Shown here in pieces: positions 11,906 through 63,438 of a DNA stretch of 64,000 nt. Location of the stretch: the NCBI GenBank assembly GCA_021234155.1, contig JAJEKV010000201.1, forward strand, positions 186,001 to 250,000, given 5' to 3'. The translations under genes were made by a program, and so were the position numbers. The notes beneath the pieces are model-generated. The model had not been told where the DNA came from. It searched no databases and worked only from the letters and a program-made list of their open reading frames with translations. The stretch comes from Isoetes taiwanensis (taxonomy: Eukaryota; Streptophyta; Lycopodiopsida; Isoetales; Isoetaceae). The stretch's first letter is position 1. Each line of letters opens with the position of its first letter.

Positions 11906-12699
11906 TGCAAACGTACAATTTTTCAGCATTTACAGATTTTCAAATTATGCCCAGCAACGCTGGGCACCATTACTAGTATATTATGTTCTTGTAGCAGCAT
12001 TATTGGTACTATGTACATATTGTATTATTAGATTACTAGAAAAAGTGCCCAGCGTTGCTGGGCTTTTCGTCAGGCATGAGTTTAGAAAACTAATACAGAT
12101 GGTGGATTGAAGTTGAGACATTTAGTTTTTGGTTTGCATTGAATGAGTGAACGTCAGTGATGGAATCGTGAGAGAACTTGTGCATGTGTTGCCAATATTG
12201 GTGCTATATGACGTGGAAGATATGTTGCATTGCATTGTGTAAACCACCATTATGTCAAAATTCTTGGTTATTATTTACCCTATTATTTATTGTTCTTATG
12301 TTTGTTCAAAATGCATGTAAACCTATAGTGGTACCATATTACATTGCAAATATGCTTCACTGCGTTGTTTAAACCCCCATGACATATTACTTGTGAGGAT
12401 AGCATGGAGATCTCTCGTCAATACTATGATTTAAACAACAAAATCAATCTTGTTAAGATAAGGGGCCTTAAACCAAGCGTATACACCACAAAAAAATTAT
12501 GTGCCTCGCAGAAGCTCCATCTCGGACTTCCTTGACAAGATTTTAAAATATTTCTATTTTTTATTCTAGATAAATACAGTATACAACTTCCCAGAGATCA
12601 GATCCGTTGAAGTACCTATTTAAACCTATAGAAGGATCAATCTGGAAGGAAAGAAAACTGAAATACTTAACTCGCATGCTTCAGAATCAAGCTACCGGA

Positions 12700-38961: not shown

Positions 38962-40914
38962 ACTAGGAATAGTGTCCAGCGTTGCTGGGCATAAGTTGAG
39001 AGCCTATAAATACTTTGGGTTGCAATGAGAAAAGCCCTATCCCAAAGCCCTTTCCCTTTTGCTCTATCCTGCATTTCACTTTTTCTTATTTTCTCTACAC
39101 TTTTATTTTTTCCTTTTTTTTTCACGTTTCCTTATTTACCCATCCCTTTCCTTCCTTCCCCCCTTCCATTTTCCTGATAACCCTTTTCCCTTCCCTTTTG
39201 CTCCGTTTTTCACATTTTTCCTCTTCTCTTTTTGCTTTGTCCTTTGACCTTTTCCCCTTCCCTTGCCCATTTTTCATGCCTTCTCTTTTCCCCACCGTTT
39301 TTCTATGCCTTCCCCTTTCCTCAACCTTTTACTCTTTTGTTTTTTTCCATGTTTGTTTTCCCTTCTCTTTTCTTCCTTTTGCCACCCTTTCCCTCTCCCT
39401 TTTTTTGTGTGCCCTTTTCCCTTTCTTTTTTCTTTTGTCATATTCTATTCTATTCTATTCTATTCTATTCTTCCATTTCCCATGCCCTTTTCACCTTCCA
39501 TTTTTCCATCTCCTCACCATTTCCCTCTTTCCCTTTTCTATGTTCCCTTTTTCTCTTCCCTTTTCCCATTTTCCTCTTTTCTTTTTTCCCGTGCCTTCTC
39601 CCCCTTTTCCCTTTTTCCCTTCTTTTTTCTTTTCCATTTCCCTTTTTCCATGCCTTTTTTTCCCACCCTTTTCCTCTTTATATTTTTCTCGTGATCCCTT
39701 TTCCTTCTTTTCTGACATTTCCCTCTTCCCTTTTTTTTGTGCAATTTTTCCTTCTTTCCACCCTTCCTTTTTCTTTTTCCATGTCTTTTTCCCCTTTCCC
39801 TCCCCTCCACTGCTCCCTTGCTTCCCTTTCCCCTTTTTCTCCTTCCCTTTTCCTGATGGATTTTCTCTTTGTGTTTTCCTCCTTTGCCGATCCATTCCCC
39901 GTGCACTTTTTTTCTTCCTTTCTGTTTCCTTTTCCACCTTTTGCACATTTGTCTTATTCTCTTATTTTTCTATACCCATTTTCCTCTTTTTCTCACCCTT
40001 TCTCTCTTCCTCTTTTCTTTTCCTTTTTTTTTCGCTTCTTTTTTTCTCTTTCTTCACCATTTTCCTCTTCCCCTTTCTCTCATGCCTTTTCCCCTTCCCT
40101 TTTCTCATTTCACTCTTTCCCTTTTTCTTGTGCCCTTTTTCCAGGTTCCCTTTCCCCTTTTTCTTTCTTCTCATTTTTTCTTTTTCTATGCCCTTTTTCC
40201 CTTCCCTTCTTCCCATTCTTTTCTTGTTCCCCCTTGTCCCTTCCCTTTTCCTCATTTTCCTAACCTTTCACTCTTCCCTTTTTCTCGATGCGCTTTTTCC
40301 CTTCCCTTTCTCTCTCTTTTTCTTTTTCCTTTTCCTATGCCATTTTCCCCTTCCTTTTTCCTCTTTCCTCAACGCTTCTCTTTTTCTCCCTTTTCCCACG
40401 CTCTTTTTCCCCTCCCTTTTCCCATGTTTTTTTTCTCCTCCCTTTTTCCATGCTTTTTTCCTCCTTCCTTTTCCCCTTTCTTTCTCCTTCCTTTTCTCAT
40501 TTCTTCAACCTTTCCCTCTTCCTTTTTTTTCGGTACCCGTTTCCCTTTTTTTTTCCACTTTACCTCTTCCCTTTTCCCTCGTGCCCTTTTCCCAGGTTCC
40601 TTTTTCCCTCCCTTTTTTTTTCATCTTTCCCTTTTCCTTTTTCCATGTCTTTTTCTCTTCTCTTATCCTCATCCTTTTCCTGTTTCCCTTTTCCCCATGC
40701 CTTTTTGCCCTTCACATTCTCTCTTTCCACTTTCCTTTTCATTTTCCCCCCTTTTCCTTTACCCATTCGCCTTAAGAGATTAAAGCATGACCAATCACGG
40801 TAGAGGTAAGTCGAGCAATAAATCTCGGCCTTCAAATGCACCAAGATGATCTCGACCATTCAAATTAGGGCTTGATCCAATCCAAGACTTACGGTATAAC
40901 ATTATAATGTAAGA
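38962..40914 (-). mobile_element. Pyrimidine-filled Helitron, element 1
   Basis: The minus-strand 5' end TCTTACATTATAATG is at 40914. The 3' end has hairpin (G)TCCAGC-GTT-GCTGGGC near 38974-38990 (plus view) and CTAGT (ACTAG at 38962-38966). About 39030-40775 is almost pure C/T on the plus strand, with only sparse G and A. It includes a (TATTC)n microsatellite at 39434-39470. The last ~140 bp, up to 40914, are a conserved 5' domain shared by all family members (CATGACCAATCACGG, ATAAATCTCGGCC, GATGATCTCGACC). No Rep/helicase. Confidence 0.78.
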
Positions 40915-43900
40915 CTAGAAATGGAGCCAGGCCTTTGTGGGCATAGCTAGGAACTATAAATGACTCACTGGAGTAAATTGTTAGATGAATTCACGTTCTT
41001 AAAATCACACAATTACATTTCCACCTCCCCTTCCTTTCCTTTTCCTTTTCCTTTTCCTTTTACGCTTCGATGCCCTTTTTTTTTCCCTCCTTTCCCTTTT
41101 TTGATTTTTTTTATTTACCTTTTTTCTTTTTCCACTCTTCCATTTCTACCATCTTCCTTTTCCCTTTTTTGTTTTCCCCTTCCATTTTTATTTTTTTGAT
41201 TTCGCAATCCATTTTCTCCCATTTCTGGTTGCCCTTTCCTTTTTCCTTTTTCACCCTTTCTCCACCCCTTTTCCTTTTTCCTTTTTTGCTTCCTTTTCCA
41301 TTTTTCTATTCCCTCCTTTTCCCTTTTTTCTTTTTTCTATTTTTCTCTTCTTTTTTGTTCTCCCCTCCACTTCCTATTTTCCTATTTTACCTTTATTTTT
41401 CCCTCATTCCCTTTCTTCTCCTCCCCATTCCACTTCCCCTTTTTCTTTTATCTTTTATCCTTTTCTTTTTCTCCGCTCCCCTCTCCTCTCCTTCCCTCCC
41501 CTTCGCTTCGCTTCCCTTTTCCCTTTCCCTTTCGCTTCCAATGGTCTTTTTCCCTTCCCTTTTCCTCCTTTTCCAGCCTTTTCTCTCTTCTACTTTTTCC
41601 TGTACAATTCTCCCTTCCATCTCCACCTCCCTTTTCGTTTTCCTATTCTCTTCCCTTTTCCCATATCCTTTTCTCCAGTTTTTTCTTCTCTTTTTCCCAG
41701 TGCCTTTTTTGCCCTTCCCTTTATTTTCGTGCTTTTTTTCCTTTTTTTTCCTCCTTCTTTGTTCTTTTTCCTTTCCTTTCATTTCATACCTTCCCTTTTT
41801 CCCTTTCCTCACACTTTCCCTCTTTCTTTTTTTTCCCTTCACTTTTTCCCCGTTCTTCTAGTTTTTTCTATGCCCTTTTTCCTTCCCTTCCCCGATTCCC
41901 CCTCTCTTTTTCTTTTCCCTTTTCCTTTCTCTTCTGCCCTCCCTTTTTCTCTTTCCCTTTTCCCGTGTCCTTTTTCCCTTCCCTTTCGCCTTTCCCCACA
42001 TTTTTCCTCTTCCCCCTCCCAGTGTCCCTTTTCACTCCCTCCCCCTCCCCCTTTCCCTTTTCTTTTCCCTTTTCCCTTCCCTTCTCTCTACCCTTTTCCT
42101 CTTCCCCTTTTTCCCGTACCTTTTACTCCTGTCCTCACCAGATTGCGGCAACTAGAGGTTCCTGTGGATATGCAAAATCACGATATCACGAGGTTATGCG
42201 AGAGTTATGCAGGCCGGTCACGGATGGCCAGACAACCATTCACTAGCGATGTTGGGGTCCGCCCGGGGATGTCCTCTTTTCCCAACATTGTTTGGTGCGT
42301 ACATTGACCAGGTTGGAACAACGGCTCATGGACAATGGGGTGGCGGGACCCAACTTTTGCATCGAGTCATCGGACAACTCATCTATGCGGGCGATGTTGA
42401 CCTCTTAGCTCACACTCCGGAGGATATGCGGTCTCACTTAGATGCTCACGGATACATTACCCGCAGACCCGCGGACATGAGCGTCAATCGGCCAAGACCA
42501 AGGTGGTCCTAATCTCATCCTCGCGCCATCCAAGGCCCCCTTCATTCACTTATCGAGGGCAACAAGTGGAGGTGACACCCACCTACATGTATGCGGGGAG
42601 TGGAGTTTCCTTCTACACTATCTTTGGGACACTTCCATAAGATTGCGTGTAGCGGCGTGGTACGGAAAGCACTCTATGCAATGCGAACAATAACCCGCAG
42701 GCGAGAACTATATGATTGGGGGCATCGGGCCTTTTATCTGTTCGGGGGTATTGGTAGAGCCCGCGTTCTTTTTTGTGCGGAGTTGAAGTCCGGGGCCCGG
42801 TGTGTCCCTTGCTACTTGGGCGACTTGGAGCAGTCTGTAGAAGGCCTTCTTAGCCGCGGGCTTTTCGAGTGAAATCCGCGGTCCCATATCAAATTTTGTT
42901 GCGGGGAGGCGGGTTTCACCGCCACCGCCGATGGCCCTTGATGTACACATCGTCTATTTCGAGAAGGTGGTGAATATGGATGATGATCGTCTACCGCTTG
43001 GCTTATCACGGTGGCAATGGGACCACAACGACTCAAGAATTGTTGGAAGGATAAAAGTCACGGTGGCTAACTAGATGGAATGTCGAGGAGCACATGTGCA
43101 TCCGGTAGAAAGCGAGGCGGTCGTGGCGTGCACTGAGATGTTACCTTGATGCTTGTTTCTCCAGCAAGCTTTGGGATTCGGGCTCGGAGCAAGTCAAAAC
43201 AGCACACATTACAAGCGACACATAAATCCGGGCATATCGCCTCCATTCGCCCGCGAGTGCCCACCATCTGGATTGAGGCAATTCGATGGATTGGGGAGCC
43301 GCGTCGGGGATAGGGTTTGTTAGTCTTTGGGAGCCGTGAGGGATGAGTGTCACACTTTCGAGCTGCCCAAAGATATGATCGATTCGGACACGCTATGCTC
43401 GAGTTGATTAGACACGATGAGCCGCTACACATGATGATCTTTGGGCACGACTTGGTCGCCCACTTTCGGATCATACATTCGGGAAGTCTTGGACTTGAGG
43501 GGCTCGGATATGCCCCTCCAACCATTTAATTGATGTCAGTAGTCTTATTGCTGCCACGGTGTTTCCCTCGAAAACCCTTCGGGGCGGGGGTTTTTTAATC
43601 CGGGCAGTAATGTGACTGCTGCGCTTTTTGTATTGGGTCCCATAGGCCGATTGGTCTCCGTGGACGATAAAAACAATTCTATTCTATTCTATTCTTTTCG
43701 TAGTGTCCTTTTTCCGTTCCTTTTCTCCCTTTCTTTTCTTTTCCCTTTTTCTGTGCTCTTTTTCCTTTTATTTTCCCTTTTCCTTCTTTCCTTTTTACCC
43801 GTGCCTTTTTTCCTTTCACTTTGCCCTTTTCTCCTCCCATTTCCTTTTTCCTTTCCCTTTTCAAGGCATGGCCAATCACAGTGGTAGGAAGTCGTGCGAT

Positions 43901-43990
43901 AAATCTTATCTTTCGGATGTAATTAGATGATCTCGACCGTATAAATTAGGGTTTGATTCATGACATACGCTAAAACTTTATAATATAAGA
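40914..43990 (-). mobile_element. Pyrimidine-filled Helitron, element 2
   Basis: Minus-strand 5' end TCTTATATTATAAAG at 43990; 3' CTAGT at 40914-40918, sharing its outermost base with the 5' end of element 1. The 3' hairpin is damaged here (GCCAGGCCTTTGTGGGC) but intact in the duplicate at 47854. The interior is a pyrimidine tract 41020-42125, a reverse-transcriptase relic 42140-43560, a second pyrimidine tract 43677-43866 beginning with (ATTCT)n, then the conserved 5' domain. Confidence 0.75.
42140..43560 (+). pseudogene. Non-LTR reverse transcriptase relic inside Helitron 2
   Basis: Plus-strand fragments in shifting frames read CPLFPTLFGAYIDQ, QLIYAGDVDLLAHTPEDMRS, VEVTPTYMY and PSTLSLGHFHKIACSGVV. 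This matches the second half of a LINE/RTE-type RT (QGCPLSPTLF, YADD, then thumb). The YADD box reads YAGD. It lies antisense to the host Helitron. Frame breaks fall largely at CAG/CTG words that differ in the duplicate copy, so some may be consensus errors. Confidence 0.65.
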
Positions 43991-44460
43991 TGTATAGGGT
44001 AGATTGCAGTTTGGATTTGGGGGAATCCAGCAAATGCCATTTTGATCCATTTATTATGAGCAAGAACTCTCGAAGATGGAAAAAAGATTCGTAGAGTGTT
44101 ATAAAGCCATTTTTATTGACAATGAATTGGCTCCTAGAACAAAATCGAGAAAAAATAAAGATGGAAAAGAAACCCTCAAAAGATTATTGAACCTGAATAT
44201 AGAACCATAGGATCTTTTATCAATGTCATGGAATCTTTTATCAAATTCAAAACATAATGATCAACTACTGCTAAGTTTTGGAATAAATAACCAGGATGCA
44301 ATTTCAACTTCCAAAATATCTTGCTTAGCCGAAAAAATTGCCATCAAATGAAATAGGCAATCTTTTATGAAGCAACTAAAAAGCAGAAAAAGAACATCGC
44401 ATAACCCAAACAGCAAAAAATTGAAGGAGGCACATTTCGATAGGTAAGAGTTCGCCAGTC
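43991..44460. other. Unassigned spacer in duplication unit A
   Basis: AT-rich, no recognised gene; 94-98% identical by eye to 50906-51380. Confidence 0.5.
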
Positions 44461-45640
44461 ATCACCTAACACATCTTCGTATATGTGGCATAGTTATGAT
44501 AAAGGACGTCGGGGAGACTCTTCAAAGTCATGGTGCGCCTCGGTGTCAGCATCATCGTATTGTGGTCTCTCCCACCATTTGATTGAAGACAGAGCTTCTT
44601 ATTCAAATTCACCTTTACCATTACCTCATCTTGTTTATTGTGCCTTTTAGCCAAATCTGGCTAGTTATTGGATATTTTCTATCTTATGTTACGTCCTCTG
44701 GCAATTCTTTGCTAGTTCTTGAATCAGTTCCTACTATGGTAGCATTTCTTATGCTATGTTACGACATTTCTATCTTTGAAGTCAAGTAGTGCATACTTGG
44801 TACATGGCAAGATACATCCATCTTTTAAGCAATCTTCTAACCAATCGTAGAATATAATAGACTGGAATAGATAATAAAAAAGCATAATCTCCAAACATCG
44901 AAGGAATGTTATCTTCAAGTTCATATCTACGAAAAATAAAGCTCATAAGCCAATGGTTAGTAAAGAATGATGCAATACGCAAACACACATATAATTGCCA
45001 ATTACAATATACGAATGCTTAACTAGAGTACTTCTATTTGTGAAAGATTTCATGCACCAAAAGGAATTCTGATATACCGGTGCTCTGGAATGCTTTAACT
45101 TGGAAAGGTCTATAGCCTTTTCCAAAATTCTTTATTGATTGCAAGAATATGAGTCCCGCCATCATCCTTAAATTCTTCCATTAATATTATCATGTAACCA
45201 CCAAGGCTAGTAACTTCGGGACTTCCAAATGTCACGCAAACTAGGCATCCCCCCCCCCCCCCACCCATCCACAAGAAGGCATGTATATCACCAAATAATC
45301 CTATCTTTTGAATCTGTCGATTATTAGTTTCAAGCTCTATATCAGATCACGAGGGCGTTTTTTACTGCTTGCAAGATTTCCCTTGAGAATATATAGGTAG
45401 GTTTAAAAGGCAATCCTTAACCTTTTGTATCCATTCTCTACAAATTTTGATAAGTTCTTTTCTTCTTACGCTAGAATTCTAATCCCATCAGATCAGCACA
45501 ATGCTCCTCATTAATACGATCTGGATTACAAGGCATGTTTCCTTTTTCATGCCCATCTCCTAATACAACAAACAATTCATCTTACACGATTCACGCTTCA
45601 CCCGGCACCCAAACTTTCCACATCTAATATTTTTTACAAT
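44461..45640 (-). pseudogene. Unidentified minus-strand gene relic, copy A
   Basis: Same content as 51381-52560 but with more frame damage. Where copy B encodes an acidic stretch (DDSDTEADHDFEES), copy A reads through a shifted frame because CTGAT/CAGG words there are CG-containing variants. It includes a 14-base poly-C run at 45249-45262. Confidence 0.4.
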
Positions 45641-45705
45641 TTAAAAAGTAGAGTTAGAATTATGAACCTTCATTTGTCGAATAATAAATTCAAATTAATG
45701 CCGAT

Positions 45706-45780
45706 GGTCCTATTGGGGCTCGAACCCGCGACTTTTCGGTTCATAAGACCGATGCTCTATCCAAGCCGAGCTACAAGATC
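45706..45780 (-). pseudogene. tRNA-like sequence, UAU anticodon, damaged (copy A)
   Basis: Clover-leaf parts are visible on the minus strand: D-arm GCTCGGCTTGGATAGAGC, anticodon stem TCGGT-CTTATGA-ACCGA with anticodon UAU (Ile), and T-arm CGCGGGTTCGAGCCCC. It is 75 nt versus 73 nt in the cleaner copies. The extra bases lie in the D-loop and variable loop, and there is one acceptor mismatch. Confidence 0.55.
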
Positions 45781-45825
45781 TTGACTAACTTATTAATGAT
45801 GCATTCTGATTTGAATTGATGCATA

Positions 45826-45893
45826 TTCTAGTGGAGCTCAAACCTAGATCCTTCGACTTATAAGAACGATGCTCTAACCAATTGGGTTAGTCA
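45826..45893 (-). pseudogene. Second tRNA-like unit, degenerate (copy A)
   Basis: The minus strand has TTGGTTAGAGCATCG, loop CTTATAA and a T-arm remnant GGTTTGAGCTCC. The acceptor arms do not pair. It is diverged from the unit before it. Confidence 0.5.
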
Positions 45894-45943
45894 CATTTCA
45901 AGGACACTAATATGTTGCATTACATATTTGACTTGATGCCTAT

Positions 45944-45992
45944 GGTCCTAGTGGGGCTCGAACCCATGCCCTTCGGCTCATAAGATCAAAGA
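45944..45992 (-). pseudogene. Third tRNA-like unit, 3' half only (copy A)
   Basis: Only the anticodon 3' arm, T-arm (GGGTTCGAGCCCC) and acceptor 3' strand (TAGGACC) are present; the 5' half is replaced by AAAGAGGATTATAG sequence. Confidence 0.55.
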
Positions 45993-46590
45993 GGATTATA
46001 GTACCAACGTGTGCACGTCACACTGACCCCAATTTTTGGTCCACATTTGTTTTTTAGTTATGCGGAAGTGTTGTTTTATGCCAAAACAACACCAAAATGG
46101 CCCCCCAAAGTCCATGTGGCCCGTTTATCCGGATTTGCACAAAGAGACAGTGGTTTTTTGGCAAAAATTTTCCACGGTGGTCTTTTGGCAGAAAAATCCA
46201 CGCGTAGGAAAAATTGACATAGTTTTTGTGATTTTTTGTCAACGTGTCCTTTTTTTTCACTGTTGTTTTTATCAGTTTTTTCTACGTGTGGTTCTTTTTT
46301 TGTCACTGTTGTTTTTTTGAGAAGTCATGCGTTATTTTTTTTAAAAGTACATGCATAGATTTACGTATTACTACACATGAAGAAGTAAAAAAGACAGATC
46401 TTTTTTTCTTTTTCTATACGTTTTGTTTTTTTTTCTCTACTTGTAGTTTTTAAAAGTTGTCATTGTTTTCTTAGAGAAAGATACATAGTTTTTAAAGAAA
46501 TCCACATGTAGCATCTAAAAATAATTGCTATTTTTAAACATTGTTTTCCTCAATATTATATGTAGCTATTAAAAAGTAGACACGTTACTT
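45993..46590. other. AT-rich end of duplication unit A
   Basis: T-rich sequence with GTTGTTTTT and TCTACGTGTGG words, no gene. It begins GTACCAACGTGTGCACGTCA just after the tRNA-like trio. It is repeated at 52912-53512. Confidence 0.5.
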
Positions 46591-47842
46591 TTTCCTTCTT
46601 TCCACCCTTCCTTTTTCTTTTTCCATGTCTTTTTCCCCTTTCCCTCCCCTCCACTGCTCCCTTGCTTCCCTTTCCCCTTTTTCTCCTTCCCTTTTCCTGA
46701 TGGATTTTCTCTTTGTGTTTTCCTCCTTTGCCGATCCATTCCCCGTGCACTTTTTTTCTTCCTTTCTGTTTCCTTTTCCACCTTTTGCACATTTGTCTTA
46801 TTCTCTTATTTTTCTATACCCATTTTCCTCTTTTTCTCACCCTTTCTCTCTTCCTCTTTTCTTTTCCTTTTTTTTTCGCTTCTTTTTTTCTCTTTCTTCA
46901 CCATTTTCCTCTTCCCCTTTCTCTCATGCCTTTTCCCCTTCCCTTTTCTCATTTCACTCTTTCCCTTTTTCTTGTGCCCTTTTTCCGGTTCCCTTTCCCC
47001 TTTTTCTTTCTTCTCATTTTTTCTTTTTCTATGCCCTTTTTTCCCTTCCCTTCTTCCCATTCTTTTCTTGTTCCCCTTGTCCCTTCCCTTTTCCTCATTT
47101 TCCTAACCTTTCCTCTTCCCCTTTTTCTCGATCGCTTTTTCCCTTCCCTTTCTCTCTCTTTTTTTTTTTTCCTTTTCCTATGCCATTTTCCCCTTCCTTT
47201 TCCTCTTTCCTCAACGCTTCTCTTTTTCTCCCTTTTCCCACGCTTTTTTTCCCTCCCTTTCCCATGTTTTTTTTTTTCTCCTCCCTTTTTCTATGCTTTT
47301 TTCCACCTTCCTTTTCCCCTTTTCCCAGGCTCTTTTTTCCCCCCTTTTCCCATGTTTTTTTTCTCCTCCCTTTTTCCATGCTTTTTTCCTCCTTCCTTTT
47401 CCCCTTTCTTTCTCCTTCCTTTTCTCATTTCTTCAACCTTTCCCTCTTCCTTTTTTTTCGGTACCCGTTTCCCTTTTTTTTTCCACTTTACCTCTTCCCT
47501 TTTCCCTCGTGCCCTTTTCCCAGGTTCCTTTTTCCCTCCCTTTTTTTTTCATCTTTCCCTTTTCCTTTTTCCATGTCTTTTTCTCTTCTCTTATCCTCAT
47601 CCTTTTCCTGTTTCCCTTTTCCCCATGCCTTTTTGCCCTTCACATTCTCTCTTTCCACTTTCCTTTTCATTTTCCCCCCTTTTCCTTTACCCATTCGCCT
47701 TAAGAGATTAAAGCATGACCAATCACGGTAGAGGTAAGTCGAGCAATAAATCTCGGCCTTCAAATGCACCAAGATGATCTCGACCATTCAAATTAGGGCT
47801 TGATCCAATCCAAGACTTACGGTATAACATTATAATGTAAGA
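46591..47842 (-). mobile_element. Helitron element 1, duplicate, 3' part missing
   Basis: Pyrimidine tract plus the conserved 5' domain ending TCTTACATTATAATG (minus strand) at 47842. Its 3' hairpin end was not included in the duplication. Confidence 0.75.
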
Positions 47843-50800
47843 CTAGAAATGGAGCCCAGCGTTGCTGGGCATAGCTAGGAACTATAAATGACTGGAGTAA
47901 ATTGTTAGATGAATTCACGTTCTTAAAATCACACAATTACATTTCCACCTCCCCTTCCTTTCCTTTTCCTTTTCCTTTTACGCTTCGATGCCCTTTTTTT
48001 TCCCTCCTTTCCTTTTTTTGATTTTTTTTATTTACTTTTTTTCTTTTTCCACTCTTCCATTTCTACCATCTTCCTTTTCCCTTTTTTGTTTTCCCCTTCC
48101 ATTTTTATTTTTTTGATTTCGCAATCCATTTTCTCCTAATTCTGGTTGCTCTTTCCTTTTTCCTTTTTCACCCTTTCTCCACCCCTTTTCCTTTTTCTTT
48201 TTTTGCTTCCTTTTCCATTTTTCTATTCCCTCCTTTTCCCTTTTTTCTTTTTTCTATTTTTCTCTTCTTTTTTGTTCTCCCCTCCACTTCCTATTTTCCT
48301 ATTTTCCTATCTTACCTTTATTTTTCCCTCATTCCCTTTCTTCTCCTCCCCATTCCACTTCCCCTTTTTCTTTTATCTTTTATCCTTTTCTTTTTCTCCG
48401 CTCCCCTCTCCTCTCCTTCCCTCCCCTTCGCTTCGCTTCCCTTTTCCCTTTCCCTTTCGCTTCCAATGGTCTTTTTCCCTTCCCTTTTCCTCCTTTTCCA
48501 GCCTTTTCTCTCTTCTACTTTTTCCTGTACAATTCTCCCTTCCATCTCCACCTCCCTTTTCGTTTTCCTATTCTCTTCCCTTTTCCCATATCCTTTTCTC
48601 CAGTTTTTTCTTCTCTTTTTCCCAGTGCCTTTTTTGCCCTTCCCTTTATTTTCGTGCTTTTTTTCCTTTTTTTTCCTCCTTCTTTGTTCTTTTTCCTTTC
48701 CTTTTTTCCATACCTTCCCTTTTTCCCTTTCCTCACAGTTTTCCTCTTTCTTTTTTTTCCCTTCACTTTTTCCCCGTTCTTCTAGTTTTTTCTATGCCCT
48801 TTTTCCTTCCCTTCCCCGATTCCCCCTCTCTTTTTCTTTTCCCTTTTCCTTTCTCTTACGCCTCCCTTTTCTCTTTTCCTTTTTTCGGTGTCCTTTTTCC
48901 CTTCCCTTTCGCCTTTCCCCACATTTTTCCTCTTCCCCTCCCAGTGTCCCTTTTCACTCCCTCCCCCTCCCCCTTTCCCTTTTCTTTTCCCTTTTCCCTT
49001 CCCTTCTCTCTACCCTTTTCCTCTTCCCTTTTTTCCCGTGCCCTTTTACTCCCCGTCCTCACCCGGATTAAGCGGCAACTAGAGGTTCTGTGGATATGCA
49101 AAATGCAAATCACACGGGTTGTAATGCGAGAGTTATGCACAGCCGGATCTGGGATGTGGGACAACCATTCACTAGCGGTATTGGGGTCCGCCAGATGTCC
49201 TCTTTTCCCAACATTGTTTGGTGCGTACATTGACCGGTTGGAACACCGGCTCATGGACAATGGGGTGGCGGGACCCAACTTTTGCATCAGGTCATCGGAC
49301 AACTCATCTATGCGACGATGTTGACCTCTTAGCTCACACTCCGGAGGATATGCGATCTCACTTAGATGCTCTGGATACATTACTACCGGGCCCGGAGACA
49401 TGAGCGTCAATCGGCCAAGACCAAGGTGGTCCTAATCTCATCCTCGCGCCATCCAAGGCCCCTTCATTCACTTATCGAGGGCAACAAGTGGAGGTGACAC
49501 CCACCTACATGTATCTCGGGAGTGGAGTTTCCTTCTACACTATCTTTGGGACACTTCCATAAGATTGCGTGTAGCGGCGGGCCGGAAAGCACTCTATGCA
49601 ATGCAGAACAATAACCACGAGGCGTAACTATATGATTGGGGGCATCGGGCACATCTGTTCGGGGTATTGGTAGAGCCCGTTCTTTTGTGCGGGTTGAAGT
49701 CAGGGGCCGGTGGTGTCCCTTGCTACTTGGGCGACTTGGAACAAAAGAAGGCCTTCTTAGCACGGGCACTTTCGGGTGAAATCCACGGTCCCATATCAAA
49801 TTTTTGTTGCGAGAGACAGGTTTCCTGCCACTTCGAAATGAAATGGCCCTTGATAGACACATCGTCTATTTCCGAAAGGTGGTGAATATGGATGATGATC
49901 GTCTCACCGCGACTTGGCTTATGCAAAGGGCAATGGGACCACAACGACTCAAGAATTGTTGGAAGGATAAAAGAGTGCAGTGGCTAACTAGATGGAATGT
50001 CCGGGAGCACATGTGCATCCGGTAGAAACAGAGGCGCATCGTGATGACTGAGATGTTACCTTGATGCTTGTTTCTCCAAAGCAAGCTTTGGGATTCGAGG
50101 GCTGCGGAGCAAGTCAAAACAAAGACATTACAAGCAAAGACATAAATCCGGCATATCGCCTCCATTCGCCTGAGTGCCCACCATCTCTGGATTGAGGCAG
50201 TCGATGGATTGGGGAGCCACGTCGGGATAGGGTTTGTTAGTCTTTGGGGCTGTTGAGGATGAGTGTCACACTTTCCGTACTGCCCAGCATATGATCAGAT
50301 TCGGACACGCTATGCTCAGTTGATTAGACCTGATGAGCCGCTACACATGATACTGGGCACGACTTCGGTGCGCCCACTCGGATCATACATTCAGGAAGTA
50401 CTGGACTTGAGGGCTCAGATATGCCCCCAGTCAACCATTTAATTGATGTCAGTAGTCTTATTGCTGCCACGGTGTTTCCCTCGAAAACCCTTCGGGGCGG
50501 GGGTTTTTTAATCCGGGCGATAATGTGATCGTGCTTGCGCTTTTGTATTGGGTCCCATAGGCCGATTGGTCTCCGTGGACGATAAAAACAATTCTATTCT
50601 ATTCTATTCTTTTCGTAGTGTCCTTTTTCCGTTCCTTTTCTCCCTTTCTTTTCTTTTCCCTTTTTCTGTGCTCTTTTTCCTTTTATTTTCCCTTTTCCTT
50701 CTTTCCTTTTTACCCGTGCCTTTTTTCCTTTCACTTTGCCCTTTTCTCCTCCCATTTCCTTTTTCCTTTCCCTTTTCAAGGCATGGCCAATCACAGTAGT

Positions 50801-50905
50801 AGGAAGTCGTGCGATAAATCTTATCTTTCGGATGTAATTAGATGATCTCGACCGTATAAATTAGGGTTTGATTCATGACATACGCTAAAACTTTATAATA
50901 TAAGA
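47842..50905 (-). mobile_element. Pyrimidine-filled Helitron, element 2 duplicate
   Basis: Minus-strand 5' TCTTATATTATAAAG at 50905; 3' hairpin GCCCAGC-GTT-GCTGGGC at 47854-47870 (plus view) and CTAGT at 47842-47846. The hairpin is perfect here. Pyrimidine tracts lie at 47940-49060 and 50592-50782. Confidence 0.78.
49060..50500 (+). pseudogene. Reverse transcriptase relic, duplicate copy
   Basis: Reads CPLFPTLFGAYIDRLEHRLM, then NGVAGPNFCIR; the YADD region is again broken (GCGACGATG where GCAGATGATG is expected). VEVTPTYMY and VEPVLLCGLKSG AGG follow. Some parts are cleaner than the first copy and others worse. Confidence 0.65.
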
Positions 50906-51380
50906 TGTATAGGGTAGATTGCAGTTTGGATTTGGGGGAATCCAGCAAATGCCATTTTGATCCATTTATTATGAGCAAGAACTCTCGAAGATGGAAAAAA
51001 GATTCGTAGAGTGTTATAAAGCCATTTTTATTGACAATGAATTGGCTCCTAGAACAAAATCAGAAAAAATAAAGATGGAAAAGAAAGGAAACCCTCCAAA
51101 AGATTATTGAACCTGAATATAGAACCATAGGATCTTTTATCAATGTCATGGAATCTTTTATCAAATTCAAAACATAATGATCAACTACTGCTAAGTTTTG
51201 GAATAAATAACCAGGATGCAATTTCAACTTCCAAAATATCTTGCTTAGCCGAAAACATTGCCATCAAATGAAATAGGCAATCTTTTATGAAGCAACTAAA
51301 AAGCAGAAAAAGAACATCGCATAACCCAAACAGCAAAAAATTGAAGGAGGCACATTTCGATAGGTAAGAGTTCGCCAGTC
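50906..51380. other. Unassigned spacer in duplication unit B
   Basis: Counterpart of 43991-44460. No gene recognised. Confidence 0.5.
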
Positions 51381-52560
51381 ATCACCTAACACATCTTCGT
51401 ATATGTGGCATAGTTATGATAAAGGACCTGATCAGGAGACTCTTCAAAGTCATGGTCTGCCTCAGTGTCACTGTCATCTGTATTGTGGTCTCTCCCACCA
51501 TTTGATTGAAGACAGAGCTTCTTATTCAAATTCACCTTTACCATTACCTCATCTTGTTTATTGTGCCTTTTAGCCAAATCTGGCTAGTTATTGGATATTT
51601 TCTATCTTATGTTACGTCCTCTGGCAATTCTTTGCTAGTTCTTGAATCAGTTCCTACTATGGTAGCATTTCTTATGCTATGTTCTGACATTTCTATGCTG
51701 AAGTCAAGTAGTGCATACTTGGTACATGGCAAGATACATCCATCTTTTAAGCAATCTTCTAACCAATCGTAGAATATAATAGACTGGAATAGATAATAAA
51801 AAAGCATAATCTCCAAACATCGAAGGAATGTTATCTTCAAGTTCATATCTACGAAAAATAAAGCTCATAAGCCAATGGTTAGTAAAGAATGATGCAATAC
51901 GCAAACACACATATAATTGCCAATTACAATATACGAATGCTTAACTAGAGTACTTCTATTTGTGAAAGATTTCATGCACCAAAAGGAATTCTGATATACC
52001 GGTGCTCTGGAATGCTTTAACTTGGAAAGGTCTATAGCCTTTTCCAAAAATTCTTTATTGATTGCAAGAATATGAGTCCCGCCATCCTTAAATTCTTCCA
52101 TTAATATTATCATGTAACCACCAAGGCTAGTAACTCGGGACTTCCAAATCAGCATACGCAACTAGGCATCCCCCCCCCCCCACCCATCCACAAGAAGGCA
52201 TGTATATCACCAAATAATCCTATCTTTTCAGGCTCTGTCTGATTATTAGTTTCAAGCTCTATATCAGATCTGAGACGTTTTTTCTGCTTGCAAGATTTCC
52301 CTTGAGAATATATAGGTAGGTTTAAGCTGCAATCCTTAACCTTTTGTATCCATTCTCTACAAATTTTGATAAGTTCTTTTCTTCTTCTGCTAGAGATTCT
52401 AATCCCATCAGATCAGCACAATGCTCCTCATTAATACGATCTGGATTACAAGGCATGTTTCCTTTTTCATGCCCATCTCCTAATACAACAAACAATTCAT
52501 CTTACCTGATTCCTGCTTCACCAGCACCCAAACTTTCCACATCTAATATTTTTTACAATT
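51381..52560 (-). pseudogene. Unidentified minus-strand gene relic, copy B
   Basis: Reading downward on the minus strand, coding-like pieces are MPCNPDRINEEHCADLMGLE and SLAEEEKNLSKFVENGYKRL (around 52470-52330), TSLGGYMIILMEEFKDGG and LEKAIDLSKLKHSRAPVYQN (52161-51990), YELEDNIPSMFGDYAF (about 51860-51800), and KRHNKQDEVMVKVNLNKK followed by DDSDTEADHDFEESPD (51577-51420). Possible splice sites separate them. I do not recognise the protein. It may be a captured or fossil multi-exon gene. Confidence 0.4.
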
Positions 52561-52624
52561 TAAAAAGTAGAGTTAGAATTATGAACCTTCATTTGTCGAA
52601 TAATAAATTCAAATTAATGCCGAT

Positions 52625-52697
52625 GGTCCTATTGGGGCTCGAACCCACGACTTTCGGTTCATAAGACCGATGCTCTATCCAACTGAGCTACAAGATC
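52625..52697 (-). tRNA. tRNA-like sequence, UAU anticodon (copy B)
   Basis: 73 nt on the minus strand. D-arm GCTC-AGTTGGATA-GAGC, anticodon arm TCGGT-CTTATGA-ACCGA (UAU, Ile), T-arm GTGGG-TTCGAGC-CCCA; box A-like and box B (GGTTCGAGCC) are intact. The acceptor has one A:C mismatch at position 2. It could be a functional tRNA or a tRNA-derived repeat. The degenerate second and third units follow at about 52745-52812 and 52863-52911. Confidence 0.5.
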
Positions 52698-52911
52698 TTC
52701 GGCTAACTTATTAATGATGCATTACAGATTTGAATTGATGCATATTCTAGTGGAGCTCAAACCTAGATCCTTCGACTTATAAGAACGATGCTCTAACCAA
52801 TTGGGTTAGTCACATTTCAAGGACACTAATATGTTGCATTACATATTTGACTTGATGCCTATGGTCCTAGTGGGGCTCGAACCCATGCCCTTCGGCTCAT
52901 AAGATCAAAGA

Positions 52912-53512
52912 GGATTATAGTACCAACGTGTGCACGTCACACTGACCCCAATTTTTGGTCCACATTTGTTTTTTAGTTGTACGGAAGTGTTGTTTTATGC
53001 CAAAAACAACACCAAAATGGCCCCAAAAGTCCATGTGGCCCGTTTATCCGGATTTGCACAAAGAGACAGTGGTTTTTTGGCAAAAATTTTCCACGGTGGT
53101 CTTTTGGCAGAAAAATCCACGCGTAGGAAAAATTGACATAGTTTTTGTGATTTTTTGTCAACGTGTCCTTTTTTTTCACTGTTGTTTTTATCAGTTTTTT
53201 CTACGTGTGGTTCTTTTTTTGTCACTGTTGTTTTTTTGAGAAGTCATGCGTTATTTTTTTTAAAAGTACATGCATAGATTTACGTATTACTACACATGAA
53301 GAAGTAAAAAAGACAGATCTTTTTTTCTTTTTCTATGCGTTTTGTTTTTTTTTCTCTACTTGTAGTTTTTAAAAGTTGTCATTGTTTTCTTAGAGAAAGA
53401 TACATAGTTTTTAAAGAAATCCACATGTAGCATCTAAAAATAATTGCTATTTTTAAACATTGTTTTCCTCAATATTATATGTAGCTATTAAAAAGTAGAC
53501 ACGTTACTTTTT
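52912..53512. other. AT-rich end of duplication unit B
   Basis: Repeat of 45993-46590; no gene. After it, unique sequence resumes with TTAAATTAGTTG. Confidence 0.5.
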
Positions 53513-55678: not shown

Positions 55679-55878
55679 AGACAATTGAGGATCTACATAA
55701 GGTTGGATGCTCATTGGTAGAAGAACAAAGAATCGTCATGAAAATGCGCATTTCAGATGAATACATGAAGAAGCAAGTTGGGCCTGGTGGTGCTTTATCC
55801 CTCTCAATGTTCCAAGTTTCGAACTCCAGCCAAATGAAAGCAGAATCTTGTTATACAAACAAAATGGCAAAATTTTGA
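55679..55878 (+). pseudogene. Exon-like fragment, gene unknown
   Basis: After TTCTTTAACAG, the plus strand reads IEDLHKVGCSLVEEQRIVMK, then MRISDEYMKKQVGPGGALSL and SMFQVSNSSQMKAES before a stop. The reading is open but unidentified. Confidence 0.3.
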
Positions 55879-55914
55879 CCCAATAGCCACCTAGGCACCA
55901 ACGAATTTTGACGC

Positions 55915-56690
55915 ATGCCACCTAGGCACCAACATGCCAAGGTGGCTCAAACATGCCAAGGTGGCTCAAACATGCCACGTGGGCTCCAACATGCCACCTA
56001 GGCTCCAGCATGCCAAGGTGGCTCAAACATGCCACGTGGCTCCTAACATGCCACCTAGGCTCCAACATGCCAAGGTGGCTCAAACATGCCACTTGGCTCA
56101 AACATGCCAAGGTGGCTCAAACATGCCACCTAGGCTCAAACATGCCAAGGTGGCTCAAACATACCACTAAGGTGGCTTCAACATGCCAAGGTGGCTCAAG
56201 CATGCCATGCTGGTTCTAACATGCCATGCAGGCATTAACATGCCAAGGTGGTGCAAACATGCCACGTGGGCTCCAACATGCCACCTAGGCTCAAACATGC
56301 CATGCCAAGGTGGCTCGAACACTCCAACATGCCACCTTGTCATGTTGGAGCCTAGGTGGCATGTTTGAGCCACCTTGGCATGTTTGAGCCTAGGTGGCCT
56401 GTTAATGCCCACGTGGCATGTTGGGGCCTAGGAGGCATGTTGGAGCCTAGGTGGCGTGTTTGAGCCATCTTGGTATGTTTGAGCCAACTTGGCATGATTA
56501 AACAACCTTGGCATGTTACAACTTACGTGGCATGTTTGAGCCACCTTGTCATGTTTGAGCCTAGGTGGCATGTGTGAGCCACCTTGGCATGTTGGAGCCT
56601 AGGTGGCATGTTGGAGTTCACGTGGCATGTTTGAGCCACCTTGGCATGTTTGAGCCTAGGTGGCATGTTGGAGCCTAGGTAGCGTTATGG
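55915..56690. repeat. Minisatellite in inverted halves
   Basis: From 55915 to about 56330 the unit AACATGCCAAGGTGGCTCA (variants CCACCTAGGCTC, CCACGTGGGCTC) repeats every 19-20 bp about twenty times. From about 56335 to 56690 the reverse complement (TTTGAGCCACCTTGGCATG) repeats, with ~21-bp units. The switch point is at 56318-56352 (CTCCAACATG...CATGTTGGAG). The whole array can fold into a long hairpin. No cas genes or unique spacers, so not CRISPR. Confidence 0.85.
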
Positions 56691-59265
56691 AGGTCGAGTT
56701 TTATTCAGTTGCACTTGAGACATGGTCGAGAAGCTGCAGTTGAAAACAAGAAGCAATAGAAACTGACGAAATGGGGTTTGGATTTACCGAGGCATGCTTT
56801 CCTACCAGTGCTTCTCCGGGAGGGCAAATGCCAATGCCTCCCTTCCCGGAACCCGGTTTCCCTATCCGACCGTTGAATTCTCCATTCAAGTAACTTGCTT
56901 CGAGCAGGTTCAAAAAAATTCAAGATCTGTCCGGGAGAACATATCAAACCGCAAAGTGTCCTGCAGTCGACCGTGTAGAAACCCAAGTGTTTTGTCGTTC
57001 GGGCAGTACAAAGGCTCCGGAATGGAGATTTGACTTCGCCATGTCGTCCGAAACAATGAAATTACCCTAGGGACCAAGTTACACGGTCATTTTTTGCAGC
57101 AAAAGAAACACGAACCCTCTACATGGCAGTATTCTGCACCCTCCGCTAAGGCCAATTCACTACGAACGTGTTGGACATGAGCTACTTTGGCGCTTCCTGG
57201 AGCAGGGGTGGTCTTCTGCCCACGAAACTTGGTCTCCAGGGTAATGTCGATGTTTCGAGTCCGTTGGCAGAGTCAGATCACAGTTCCGGGGTGGGAGAGT
57301 TGCCCGTCCGTGGCCAGGGACCTTCCAGAGAGGACCTTTGGGTCGAACTGCTTCTAGAAGGTTTTAGGGCTCCGTCTTCTGGTGTCAATGCCCTCCCACT
57401 ACCTCATGACATTGTGCATATCCTGCTCCAATCTGGCTAGCGTATGGCCTCCAAAACGCAAACCCTGTGCCTTGCCAGGTTATTGTAGGGTTTACATTGT
57501 GGAGGCCAAAACGTGGTCAGTTGCACTTGGGACCTGGTATACCTCTTTCGAGCATGCATGCGGAGCCATGGCAACTGAAATAACAGACTTTGGATCTATT
57601 GGCGATCCCGAACCATTCCAAAAAAATTTGCTACTACAAAATGTGTTCTTGACTTCTAATTGCGACACTGGGAGGAGGATAAATCCAAACCTCATTTCGT
57701 CAGTTTCTATTGCTTCTTGTTTTCAACTGCAGCTTCTCGACCATGTCTCAAGTGCAACTGAATAAAACTCGACCTCCATAACGTAAACCCTACAATAACC
57801 TAGCAACGCACAGGGTTTACGTTTTGGATGCCAAAACGTGGTCGACTTCTTTGATAACTAGGTGGACCATTTCTAAACATGCATGGGGAGCCATGAGAAC
57901 TAAAATAACAGAGTTTCGATCTAGTCGCTAATCCGAGTGACCCCAAACAATTTTGCTACTGCATAAGGCGCTCTACACTTTTAATTGCAAAACTAGGAGG
58001 AGAATAAATCCAAACCCCATTCTTGCAGTTTCTATTGCCTCGTGTTTTCAAATGCAGCTGCTCGACCATGTCCCAAGTGCAACGGACCAAAGCCCGACCT
58101 CCATAACGTAAACCCTACAATAATCTGGCAAGGCACAGGGTTTACGTTTTGGAGGCCATACCCTAGTCAGATTGGACCAGGATCTTGCACAATGTCATGG
58201 GGTAGTGGGAGGGCATTGACGGAGCCCTAAAACCTTCCAAAGGTCCTCTCTGGAAGGTCCCTGGCCATGGACGGGCAACTCTCCCACCTCGGAACTGTGA
58301 TCTGACTCTGCCAACTGACTCGAAATATCGACATTACCCTGGAGACCAAGTTTCGTGGGCAGAAGACCACTCCTGCTCCAGGAAGCGCCAAAGTAGCTCA
58401 TGTCCAACACGTTCGTAGTGAATTGGCCTTAGCGGAGGGTGCAGAATACTGCCATGTAGAGGGTTCGTGTTTCTTTTGCTGCAAAAAATGACCGTGTAAC
58501 TTGGTCCCTAGGTGTAATTTCACTGTTTCGGACGACATGGCGAAGTCAAATCTCCATTCCGGAGCCTTTGTACTGCCCGAACGACAAAACACTTGGGTTT
58601 CTACACGGTCGACTGCAGGACACTTTGCGGTTTGATATGTTCTCCCGGACAGATCTTGAATTTTTTTGAACCTGCTCGAAGCAAGTTACTTGAATGGAGA
58701 ATTCAACGGTCGGATAGGGAAACCGGGTTCCGGGAAGGGAGGCATTGGCATTTGCCCTCCCGGAGGAGCACTGGTAGGAAAGCCTGCCTCGGTAAATCCA
58801 AACCCCATTTCGTCAGTTTCTATTGCTTCTTGTTTTCAACTGCAGCTTCTCGACCATGTCTCAAGTGCAACTGAATAAAACTCGACCTCCATAACGTAAA
58901 CCCTACAATAACCTAGCAACGCACAGGGTTTACGTTTTGGAGGCCAAAACGTGGTCGACTTCTTTGATAACTAGGTGGACCATTTCTAAACATGCATGGG
59001 GAGCCATGAGAACTGAAATAACAGAGTTTCGATCTAGTCGCTAATCCGAGTGACCCCAAACAATTTTGCTACTGCATAAGGCGCTCTACACTTTTAATTG
59101 CAAAACTAGGAGGAGAATAAATCCAAACCCCATTCTTGCAATTTCTATTGCCTCGTGTTTTCAAAAGCAGCTGCTCGACCATGTCCCAAGTGCAACGGAC
59201 CAAAGCCCGACCTCCATAACACAAACCCTACAATAACCTGGCAAGGCATAGGGTTTACGTGCCAT
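56690..59265. repeat. Large inverted and direct repeat complex (foldback-like)
   Basis: The segment 56690-57420 recurs in reverse complement at about 58170-58890 (for example GTTTTATTCAGTTGCACTTG near 56698 and its complement near 58870; GGAACCCGGTTTCC near 56850 and 58725). In addition 57683-58160 recurs directly at 58793-59265. CATAACGTAAACCCTACAAT and GGGTTTACGTTTTGGA mark the ends of sub-units. No transposase is visible. The minisatellite at its left, and related CATGTTGGAG words at 59262-59340 on its right, suggest one composite foldback element. Confidence 0.75.
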
Positions 59266-59474
59266 ATCCCCACTCGGAGTGCCTAGATGGCATGCTTGAG
59301 TCTAGGTGCCATGCCTGACCCACATTGGCATGTTGGAGCGTATTTGGCTATGATACCTTCGTGCACATGACTCGGAAGCAAGGTTTTCCCGAGCAAGGTT
59401 TTCCCGAGTTTGTGTTTAGGTTTAAGGTGTTAGCTGTGATATTTTGCTTGATGGCTCCAACAATTACATCTCTA

Positions 59475-59652
59475 ATTCTTAGTGCAAATCGTCTAAGTGC
59501 AATAAGTTATCTTGTTTTTCAAAGAACCATTGGATTCTTAGTGCAAATCGTCTAAGTGCAATAAGTTATCTTGTTTTTCAAAGAACCATTGGATTCTTAG
59601 TGCAAATCGTCTAAGTGCAATAAGTTATCTTGTTTTTCAAAGAACCATTGGA
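59475..59652. repeat. 59-bp unit repeated three times
   Basis: ATTCTTAGTGCAAATCGTCT through CAAAGAACCATTGG occurs at 59475, 59534 and 59593, essentially identical. Confidence 0.9.
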
Positions 59653-59739
59653 TAAGATAAATTAGATACAATTAAAACCATTGGATGACGTGGATAACTA
59701 TTGGATCGTCTATAGCGAACCTTAGTACCAACTTAGGCA

Positions 59740-60101
59740 TGGTTTAATGGTGTTCCACTAATGATATCCAAAATGGGGGGATAATGTTAGGATATTGCGT
59801 AGTCTTGCCATTTTATAATGCTTGGGGATTTGTTGCAATGGTCCTATTCCCCATAAACAATTACATCTCAAATTCTTAATGGTCTAAATTATACCAAGAT
59901 GTCGGAACGGTTTAATGGTGTTCCACTAACGATATCCAAAATGGGGGAATAATGGATATTGCATGGTCTTGCCATTTTAATGCTTGGGGATTTGTTGCAA
60001 TGGTCCTTTCCTCTATAAAGAAATACATCTCACAATTCTTAATGGTTTGTTATGCAAAAATGTAGGCGTGGTTTAATGGTCTTTCTCTAACAATATCCAA
60101 A
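59740..60101. repeat. 161-168 bp tandem array, left part
   Basis: GGTTTAATGG starts units at 59741, 59909 and 60070. Each continues with ATATCCAAAATGGGG, GATATTGC, CTTGGGGATTTGTTGCAATG and ATTCTTAATGGT. The third unit is cut at 60101 and resumes at 62191 after a Helitron. Confidence 0.85.
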
Positions 60102-62190
60102 ACTAGAAACAGTGCCCAGCGTTGCTGGCATAGCTAGAAACTGTGAATGACATACTGGAGCAATTGTTAAATGGATTCTTGTTTTTAAAATTGGATAATC
60201 AAGAGCATTCGACCACATTTCGCACTTCCCCTTATCTTTTCCGTTTCCTTTTTCATTTTGCCTTTGTCTATTATTTTTTTTTTCCTATTTCCCCCTTGCC
60301 CCTTTTCCCTTTTTACATTTTTCAATTTACTTTTTTCTTTTTCCATTATTCCATTTCCTCTTTTTCTCTTTTTTGTTTCTGCTTCCCCATTTTTCCTTTT
60401 CTATTTTTCCCTTCCCTTTTCTCCAATTTGTGGTTGCCCTTTTTCCCTTTCCTTGTGCCCTTTCCCCCCTCTCTTTTCCCATTTCCCTCTTCCCCTTTTC
60501 CTCGTGCCCCTCTTTCTATGTTTTCCTTTTCTCGCTTTCCCCTTTCCTTTCCTTTTCCCTTTTCCCCTTTCCTTTCCTTCTCCCCACCTTTTCTTTTTTT
60601 CCCTTATTCCCTTCCCTTTTCCTCTTTTGCCCAAATTCCCTTCATCTTCCTTTTTTTCTAGTGCCCTTTTCCCTTCCTTTCCCCCCCTCATTTTTTCTTT
60701 TCCCTCTTTCCCTTTCCCTTTTTCCATGTCTATTTTTCCTTCGGTTTTCCCCTTTCCTCACCCTTTCCCTCTTCCCTTTTTTGCCATGTCCCTTTTCTCT
60801 TCTATTTTTTCATGCTCTTTTTTTTTCTCCTCTTTTTTTCCCTTTCTTCACCTTTTTCCTCCTCCCCCTTTTTTCCTTTTTTCCTTCTCTTTTTTTTTTT
60901 CTATTTTGCTTTTCCTTTTTATTCACCTCCCCTTTCTATTTTTCCATTTTACCTCCCGTTTTTCCCTTTTGCCTTTTTCCATTTGCTTCCACTTTTTTTT
61001 TCGCTTTGCCTTTTCCATTTTCAACCTCCTTGTCTTTTTTTTCCCTTCCCTTTATTTCTCTTCCCCCTTTTACAATTGCCATTTATTCCTTCCCTTTGCC
61101 CACCCTTTCCCCCTCTTCCCTTTTTTTCTCGTAGTCTTTTTTTTTTCCCTTTCCTCCCTCATTTGTTCTTTTTTTCTTTTTCCCTTTCCCTTTCCTCCCT
61201 CCTTTCTCTTCCTTTTTTTTGGTCGCTTCTCTCCTTTTTTTTTCTTCCTCTTTTCCCCATGCCCTTTTTCCCTTTTGCCCCTCCCCTCGCTTTTTCCTTT
61301 TACCCTTTCCATCCCTTCTCTCCTCCCTTTTTCTCTTTCCTTTTTTTTTTTTTTTTTCCTTTTTTCCCTTCCTTTTTTCTCCTTTCCCCACCTTTTTTCT
61401 CTCCCCCTTTCCCACTGTCCCTTTTCGCTCCCTCCTCCTCTCCCCTTTTTCCCTTTCCATTTTCCTTTCCTTTTCCCTTTTCCTTTTCCCTTCCCTTCTC
61501 TCTACCCTTTTCCTCATCCCCTTTTTCCCTTCCCTTTTACTCCTGTCCTCACCCTTTCCCTCTTCTCCTTTTCATAGTGCCATTTTTTCCTTTATTTTCT
61601 CTCTTACTTTTCCTTTCTCTTTTTTGTCCTATTTTCTATCCCTTTTATCCATGCCTTTTTTGCCTTTCACTTTGCCTTTATCTCCTCCCTTTTCCTCCTT
61701 TCCCCACCTTTTTACTCTTCCCATTTCCCAGTGTTCCTTTTCACTCCCTCCTCCTCCCCCTTTCTTTTACCTTTTCCTTTCCCTTTCCCTTTTCTTTTCT
61801 TTTCCCTTTTCCTTTTCCCTTCCCTTTTCTCTACCCTTTTCCTCATCCCCTTTTCAACTTCCCTTTTACTCCTATCCTCATCCTTTCCATCTTCTCCTTT
61901 TCATAGTGTCCTTTTTTTCTTTATTTTCCTTTCCCTTTTTCGTGCTCTTTTCACTTTTCTTTTTTCTTTTCTTTCTTTCCCTTTTACCCGTGCCTTTTTG
62001 CCTTTCACTTTGCCATTTTCTCCTCCCTTTTCCTTTTCCCTTTCCTCTTCACACATTAGAGCATGGCCAATCATGGTGGAGGGAAGTCGTGCGATAAATC
62101 TCGACCTCCGAATGCAATCGGATGATCTCAACCATCCAAATTAGGGTTTTCATTCATGACATACTTACGCTATAACATTATAATATAAGA
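60102..62190 (-). mobile_element. Pyrimidine-filled Helitron, element 3
   Basis: Minus-strand 5' end TCTTATATTATAATG at 62190, preceded by A; 3' end hairpin GCCCAGC-GTT-GCTGGC and CTAGT (60102-60106), followed by T. It therefore sits exactly between A and T, as expected for Helitrons. About 60230-62050 is nearly pure pyrimidine on the plus strand, with an internal ~300-bp repeat (CCCAGTGTTCC/CCCACTGTCCC units near 61415 and 61725). The terminal ~130 bp match elements 1 and 2. It carries no captured gene and no Rep/helicase. Confidence 0.85.
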
Positions 62191-63420: not shown

Positions 63421-63438
63421 ATTTGAATTAATGCCTAT

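Follow-up and report, generated by a model that had tools for sequence, protein, structure and literature searches.

A family of Helitrons with long purine-rich bodies was identified in a 64,000-nucleotide stretch of the Isoetes taiwanensis genome (assembly GCA_021234155.1, contig JAJEKV010000201.1, forward-strand positions 186,001 to 250,000), hereafter the window. Elements of the window are designated E1, E2, E3 and W0, and individual genomic loci are given L numbers. The results indicate that these Helitrons are probably non-autonomous, moved in trans and able to swap their 3' ends, and that their body is a degenerate minisatellite of purines passed on by descent.

The elements have the canonical ends of Helitrons (TC and CTRR termini, insertion between A and T with no duplication of the target, and a 3' hairpin), in agreement with the identity proposed in an initial annotation of the window. 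The Helitron strand starts with TCTTATATTATAATGTT, the TC preceded by host A, and the 5' domain extends over ~140 bp. The common 3' end consists of a GCCCAGC-AAC-GCTGGGC hairpin (17 nt with a 7-bp stem) followed by 11 nt ending in CTAG and then host T. The sequences representing the element termini are TCTTATATTATAATGTTA and, for the hairpin, GCCCAGCAACGCTGGGC. A hairpin of 16-20 bp located 10-15 bp from the 3' end has been described as canonical for Helitrons (PMC13286980). The arrangement A/TC...CTAG/T, in which slashes mark the element boundaries, was exact in nine of 16 full elements (1.67-2.36 kb). E1 has both TC and CTAG/T, but E2 lies directly before its TC. The 5' tip was altered in four of the 16 (L040, L052, L055 and L057) and the 3' tip in two (L039 and L054). 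This set comprised 14 fetched elements together with E1 and E3, and omitted two pairings involving the E2 duplicate and a 6.5-kb pairing at L058. Flanks vary between loci, as expected for separate insertions, although a few loci are segmental duplicates sharing one flank (L014/L022). The oligo-T insertion target of Helentrons and HINE elements was not found in the 16 elements, the flanks being variable and nine insertions lying between A and T beside a canonical CTAG. The hairpin had been described as conserved; the common form exists, but within the window the hairpin is imperfect in E1, in E3, which lacks one C, and in the first copy of E2, and is perfect only in the E2 duplicate.

Scanning of the 64 kb at a threshold of at least 85% in 200-bp segments, with overlapping rows merged, revealed plus-strand pyrimidine-rich intervals at 39033-40788, 40988-42169, 43655-43886, 46574-47716, 47913-49092, 50570-50801 and 60203-62074, and no further purine or pyrimidine intervals at this threshold on either strand. 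Three independent Helitron insertions, one of them duplicated, are present and all are on the minus strand. Four tract-bearing elements had been annotated initially; the structures are present, but the fourth is the product of a 7-kb tandem duplication (39745-46593 and 46589-53512, 94% identical) that yielded a second E2 and a truncated E1. Since the sequence at 46589-47842 is the E1 copy from this duplication, three insertions rather than four are counted. The CTAG of E2 directly abuts the TC of E1 at 40914/40915.

The tracts were 88-91% purine on the Helitron strand in the 16 full elements (89% in E1 and 91% in E3), and those of the window were 1.2-1.9 kb long. The earlier description of the tracts as nearly pure was too strong, the longest uninterrupted purine run in six representatives being 46-78 nt. 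Interruptions, previously placed at intervals of ~20-60 bp, are denser, with a median spacing of 13-17 nt in five of the representatives and 27 nt in the sixth; those of the CAT type characterize mainly E1. The tracts are not plain microsatellites, as first concluded. They contain many short degenerate arrays, and in the six representatives autocorrelation peaked at 6, 7 and 13 bp, weakly in most and more strongly in L039 and L040. The words AAAAGG and AAAAGGG are common to tracts of different subfamilies, which otherwise scarcely align. Pairwise alignment of ten tracts, scored relative to 15 dinucleotide shuffles, gave z values of 4.5-13.5 in 39 of 45 pairs and higher values in the other six. 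Chance composition does not yield a purine content of 90% for as long as 1-2 kb, and the structure is also present on other contigs; the purine bodies are therefore real. A telomere-like repeat was rejected because AAAAGGG differs from TTTAGGG, the plant telomere unit. A coding role for the long open reading frames of the tracts was set aside, as sequence made of purines or of pyrimidines is trivially free of stops.

The relationship between tract and element was evaluated with 20 loci fetched by match to the 3' domain of E3. A full element of the E3 subfamily was present at 13 loci. In the other seven (L041, L043, L044, L046, L050, L051 and L058) no 5' end was recognized at the expected place; the tract beside the 3' end was 272-1540 bp long, but below the threshold length in L058. 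The 14 full copies of the subfamily, including E3, were 91-98% identical over aligned bases with the tract included, and had 1-36% gap columns that arise from large indels. Since identity at this level extends over the tract, the tract moves with the element and, in this subfamily, belongs to it. Two more full elements, E1 and the one on the plus strand of L049, have similar ends and a similar purine content but align to the E3 class at only ~60%. Among 34 tracts of at least 700 bp, 23 were in the E3 class and 11 in eight small classes.

The abundance of the elements was determined in the complete assembly of 1.66 Gb (1,110 contigs). A strict 29-place pattern of the 3' end, comprising the hairpin and CTAG/T, had 3,389 exact copies and the reversed-pattern control had none. 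Searches for strict 5' ends gave 95 of the E3/L049 type and 148 of the L039/L040 type, with no matches to either control. Tracts were sampled at 34 of 100 listed 3' ends, all on contigs C1 to C80, comprising 20 ends taken at every fifth place (621 bp each) and 14 ends taken at approximately every sixth place avoiding the first set (451 bp each). A purine tract (at least 85% in 200 bp) was near five of the 20 and five of the 14, or 10/34 (95% interval 15-47%). None of the 34 had a pyrimidine tract and 24 had neither within the 0.4-0.6 kb read, a distance beyond which farther tracts would escape. In all ten sampled tracts the purine is on the Helitron strand, as first proposed from the window. 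Of the 34 tracts of at least 700 bp, which are partly non-independent, 31 had a signature of the 5' or of the 3' end when read in the purine orientation, three of these with an additional signature in the opposite orientation, and three had none. Extrapolating 10/34 to the 3,389 ends gives a rough estimate, from a sample of contigs C1 to C80, of ~1,000 elements with a purine tract, a number that would affect repeat annotation and read mapping. Elements that have a 3' end in common but differ in whether they carry a strand-locked purine body, all in one genome, offer a natural test for an influence of body composition on rolling-circle transposition.

Comparison of the terminal domains is consistent with exchange of 3' ends. 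The 5' domains of the tract-bearing classes were 59-93% alike, while W0 was 47-53% like them; the 3' domains were 37-66% alike except for the identical pair from L049 and L057. End coordinates of E1, E2 and E3 in this comparison were off by 1-3 bases, too small to alter the result. The greater likeness of the 5' domains indicates that the tract and 5' domain behave as one module. Global-alignment clustering of the 3' domains placed all 34 in one group and was disregarded. One clear exchange was found at L092, which is 90% identical to the minus-strand element of L039 up to a point 6 bp short of the hairpin; 13 bases without a match follow, and the final 100 bp of L092 are 91% identical to the terminal 92 bp of L062, whose type has no tract. 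This pattern is what read-through past the 3' hairpin would leave, and recombination between elements could do likewise. Read-through of this kind has been described for the bat Helitron Helraiser, and L092 is a readable exchange of the form predicted by the Helraiser model (PMC4778049). With either read-through or recombination, the purine strand would always be the Helitron strand and no selection would be needed.

From these results we infer that the elements are mobilized in trans, with the 5' domain and the 3' hairpin with CTAG recognized by a RepHel transposase from another element, and that the body travels as a passenger, replicated with the rest of the element, and is mainly neutral filler. 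An AAAAGG/AAAAGGG minisatellite would have arisen once, beside the 5' domain in an ancestor, and the tract would then have grown and changed by slippage and tandem duplication, with read-through the likely cause of 3'-end exchange. Changes in tract length include indels of 177-349 bp and tandem duplications of 329 and 85 bp. In the E3 subfamily, substitutions per 100 cells were 2.7 in the tract, 1.7 in the 5' domain and 1.3 in the 3' domain, and the corresponding indel events per kb were 6.0, 3.7 and 1.8. The transition/transversion ratio was 3.1 in the tract, 0.5 in the 5' domain and 1.3 in the 3' domain; the high ratio of the tract may reflect slippage in A/G runs and alignment as well as selection. 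Eighteen of 34 partial copies, left after removal of identical flanks, were also aligned jointly, but non-element sequence was mixed in and this alignment was dropped.

Several results weigh against this interpretation. Although RepHel genes appear plentiful from the 1,813 genome candidates obtained with the PF14214 profile, no Rep/helicase relative with the same ends, which the initial annotation had suggested seeking, was found among the 150 candidates scored: no 5' end, among all 95 of the E3 type and 100 (of 148) of the L039 type, preceded a same-strand scored hit at a distance of 20 kb or less. The closest pair of a 5' end and a scored hit in any orientation was ~15 kb apart. Two of 45 compared 3' ends were within 15 kb of a scored hit, yet upstream of it, a position that rules them out as the 3' end belonging to that hit. 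In the 7-kb duplication, substitutions were 0.8% in the E1 tract, 2.3% in the long part of the E2 tract and 0% in the short part versus 2.4% in the non-Helitron flank, and indel events were approximately equal; thus, the tract evolved no faster than the flank and rapid turnover is unseen at that scale. Shared variants of the tract were poor in transversions, unlike those of neutral filler: 18 transversions of the tract were shared and 119 private, compared with 7 and 17 for the ends (Fisher p 0.06 versus the ends and p 4e-5 versus transitions). This result, which would point to purifying selection on purine content, was not repeated in a second, partial set of copies aligned to a reference, in which the shared/private values were 17/42 in the tract and 2/4 in the ends; that set retained 15 of 22 rows after removal of near-identical copies, had lost many copies to the identity filter and contained no 5'-domain columns. 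Lastly, tracts of different classes align at only ~60%, and a single origin is therefore unproved.

At L085 (C23:225064-225514), a tract-bearing 3' end precedes a same-strand, scored PF14214 hit by less than 1 kb.

A tract that is functional in cis is considered unlikely but would account for several properties of the bodies. On this view the strand nicked by Rep and displaced by the helicase is mostly purine; its scarcity of hairpins, its freedom from false hairpin-CTRR terminators and perhaps stable purine-RNA hybrids would favor complete rolling-circle transfer, and selection would maintain the strand bias. Predicted single-strand folding of the tract interiors of the 16 full elements was weak, at -0.35 to -2.3 kcal/mol per 150 nt, compared with -12.8 for W0 and -13.2 for ordinary DNA of the window. 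None of the 16 interiors contained a hairpin-CTRR pseudo-terminator in a scan that detected the true end in 12 of the 16, whereas ordinary 2-kb pieces had a mean of 0.97, with none in 12 of 38. Furthermore, the purine content is maintained though the classes scarcely align, and in one alignment shared variants included fewer transversions than private variants. However, every structural point follows from composition alone, the second set of copies did not reproduce the transversion result, tract-free ends are the commoner (24/34), and W0 has only one pseudo-terminator in 4.9 kb without a tract. Triplex-forming and G-rich motifs, to which the initial annotation had drawn attention, are indeed denser than in the rest of the window, G-quadruplex (G4) motifs occurring at ~1.1 per kb over 34 tracts versus five in the remaining 56.4 kb, but mostly at the level of dinucleotide shuffles: G4 motifs were at that level in seven of seven tracts tested, and mirror repeats were clearly above it in two of seven (L039 and L040, which are regular), with E2 at the upper edge (10 versus 3.3±2.6). 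A triplex or G4 function was rejected, as for most tracts nothing was shown that goes beyond composition. It is more doubtful still that selection maintains the one-strand purine body as a functional component that gives the elements their copy number, whether by keeping the strand unfolded and free of false terminators or through purine-RNA R-loops that expose single-stranded DNA to Rep.

Independent insertion of purine satellites or microsatellites into several Helitron subfamilies would explain why relatives by 3' domain occur with and without a tract, as in L092 and L062, and why the tract classes scarcely align. The constant orientation in 10/10 sampled tracts and the greater likeness of the 5' than of the 3' domains among tract classes argue against such insertions, and L092 is accounted for by 3'-end exchange, making this origin improbable. 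The related proposition that the tracts are independent satellites absent from most family members fails for the E3 subfamily, in which the 14 full copies carry the tract, albeit at loci chosen by match to the 3' domain of E3, but among the sampled ends sharing the common 3' pattern 24/34 have no nearby tract. Inflation of the tracts by assembly or base-calling artefacts is highly improbable: divergence resembling error does occur elsewhere, at 12.6% in the reverse-transcriptase part of the 7-kb duplication versus 2.4% in the flank, but tracts that are 91-98% identical are found on different contigs (3.6 to 24.5 Mb) and the tract parts of the duplication differ no more than the flank. Transversions exceeded transitions in the reverse-transcriptase part, and a guess at the cause of its divergence is miscalled bases where the DNA is GC-rich and methylated. 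The probable explanation remains that these Helitrons are non-autonomous and inherit their purine body.

In most descriptions, the body of a Helitron consists of captured gene fragments or of tandem repeats. The rice element Mothra (DHH_Mothra) is similar to those described here in its TC...CTAG ends, 16-bp hairpin, length of ~2 kb, body of repeat blocks, lack of an internal RepHel and copies that differ mostly in repeat number (PMC4683698). It differs in having two blocks of six direct repeats each, with Bloc A ~20% GC, and a purine-strand bias is not mentioned in the portion of that report consulted; its authors suspect that unusual composition aids transposition (PMC4683698). The oyster Cg_HINE elements, non-autonomous Helentrons with satellite-like central repeats, also combine related ends with related or unrelated arrays and have an array orientation that is constant relative to the ends, but are of the Helentron type with an oligo-T target and monomers averaging 140-180 bp rather than an irregular purine tract (PMC7492417). 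The ISX Helitron of Drosophila miranda likewise carries a GA-rich motif; however, it is a 21-bp protein-binding motif co-opted for dosage compensation and not a kilobase body (PMC6417741). Repeat-bodied Helitrons and Helentrons are therefore already known from Mothra and Cg_HINE, and the one-strand purine body is the new point. No description of a Helitron with a kilobase purine body was present among the titles and abstract openings listed in searches of open-licence literature, which agrees at that level with the initial view that the family is undescribed.

Approximately 1.5 kb of E2 is a reverse-transcriptase fragment that appears to be of the long interspersed nuclear element (LINE) type. 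The E2 and E3 tracts align on either side of it, indicating that the fragment was inserted into, or captured within, an E3-like tract. In a scan of reverse-transcriptase pieces from relatives, Pfam RVT_1 was above the cut-off in two of four (L002 and L008). Relatives of the fragment are present at L002-L008; genome-wide, a first look gave 2,861 candidates for this sequence, of which 40 were scored. At L003 the sequence again lies between two purine tracts, and at L006 it comes after sequence with a sub-threshold Helitron_like_N match.

Table 1. Helitrons, purine tracts and associated features of the window (slashes mark element boundaries).
Feature	Coordinates	Strand	Remarks
E1, complete Helitron	38963..40914	-	1952 bp; 5' TCTTACATTATAATG; 3' hairpin with one stem mismatch, then CTAG/T
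E1 purine tract	39033..40788	-	purine on minus strand
E2, Helitron	40915..43990	-	3076 bp; inserted exactly at E1 5' junction (CTAG/TCTTAC); hairpin degraded
E2 purine tract, long part	40988..42169	-	aligns at its inner end to E3 61382-61553
E2 purine tract, short part	43655..43886	-	aligns to E3 61872-62049
Reverse-transcriptase fragment inside E2 tract	42140..43694	+	TATTC-repeat tail; approximate edges
E1 duplicate	46589..47842	-	3'-truncated; keeps 5' end and part of tract
E2 duplicate	47843..50905	-	3063 bp; hairpin intact
E3, complete Helitron	60103..62190	-	2088 bp; from subfamily with 14 full copies seen
E3 purine tract	60203..62074	-	internal 329-bp tandem duplication at 61292-61928
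W0, tract-free stretch	7121..11976	+	putative single element with ends of the kind seen in E1-E3; 5' TCCTATATTATAATGTTA; 3' hairpin and CACCATTACTAG followed by T

A converging second 3' end was present on the minus strand at 12036, 60 bp from W0. At L035 and L037 the 3' end of an element is followed at once by TCTTA sequence resembling a 5' end. Sequences resembling transfer RNA (tRNA), called tRNA-Ile by a tool using the bacterial code, were located in a repeated segment on the minus strand at 45705-45780, 52624-52697 and 63437-63512. In the region 55871-59260, repeats of 19 and 57 bp form arrays that are nested and inverted, and a 325-bp repeat is also present.

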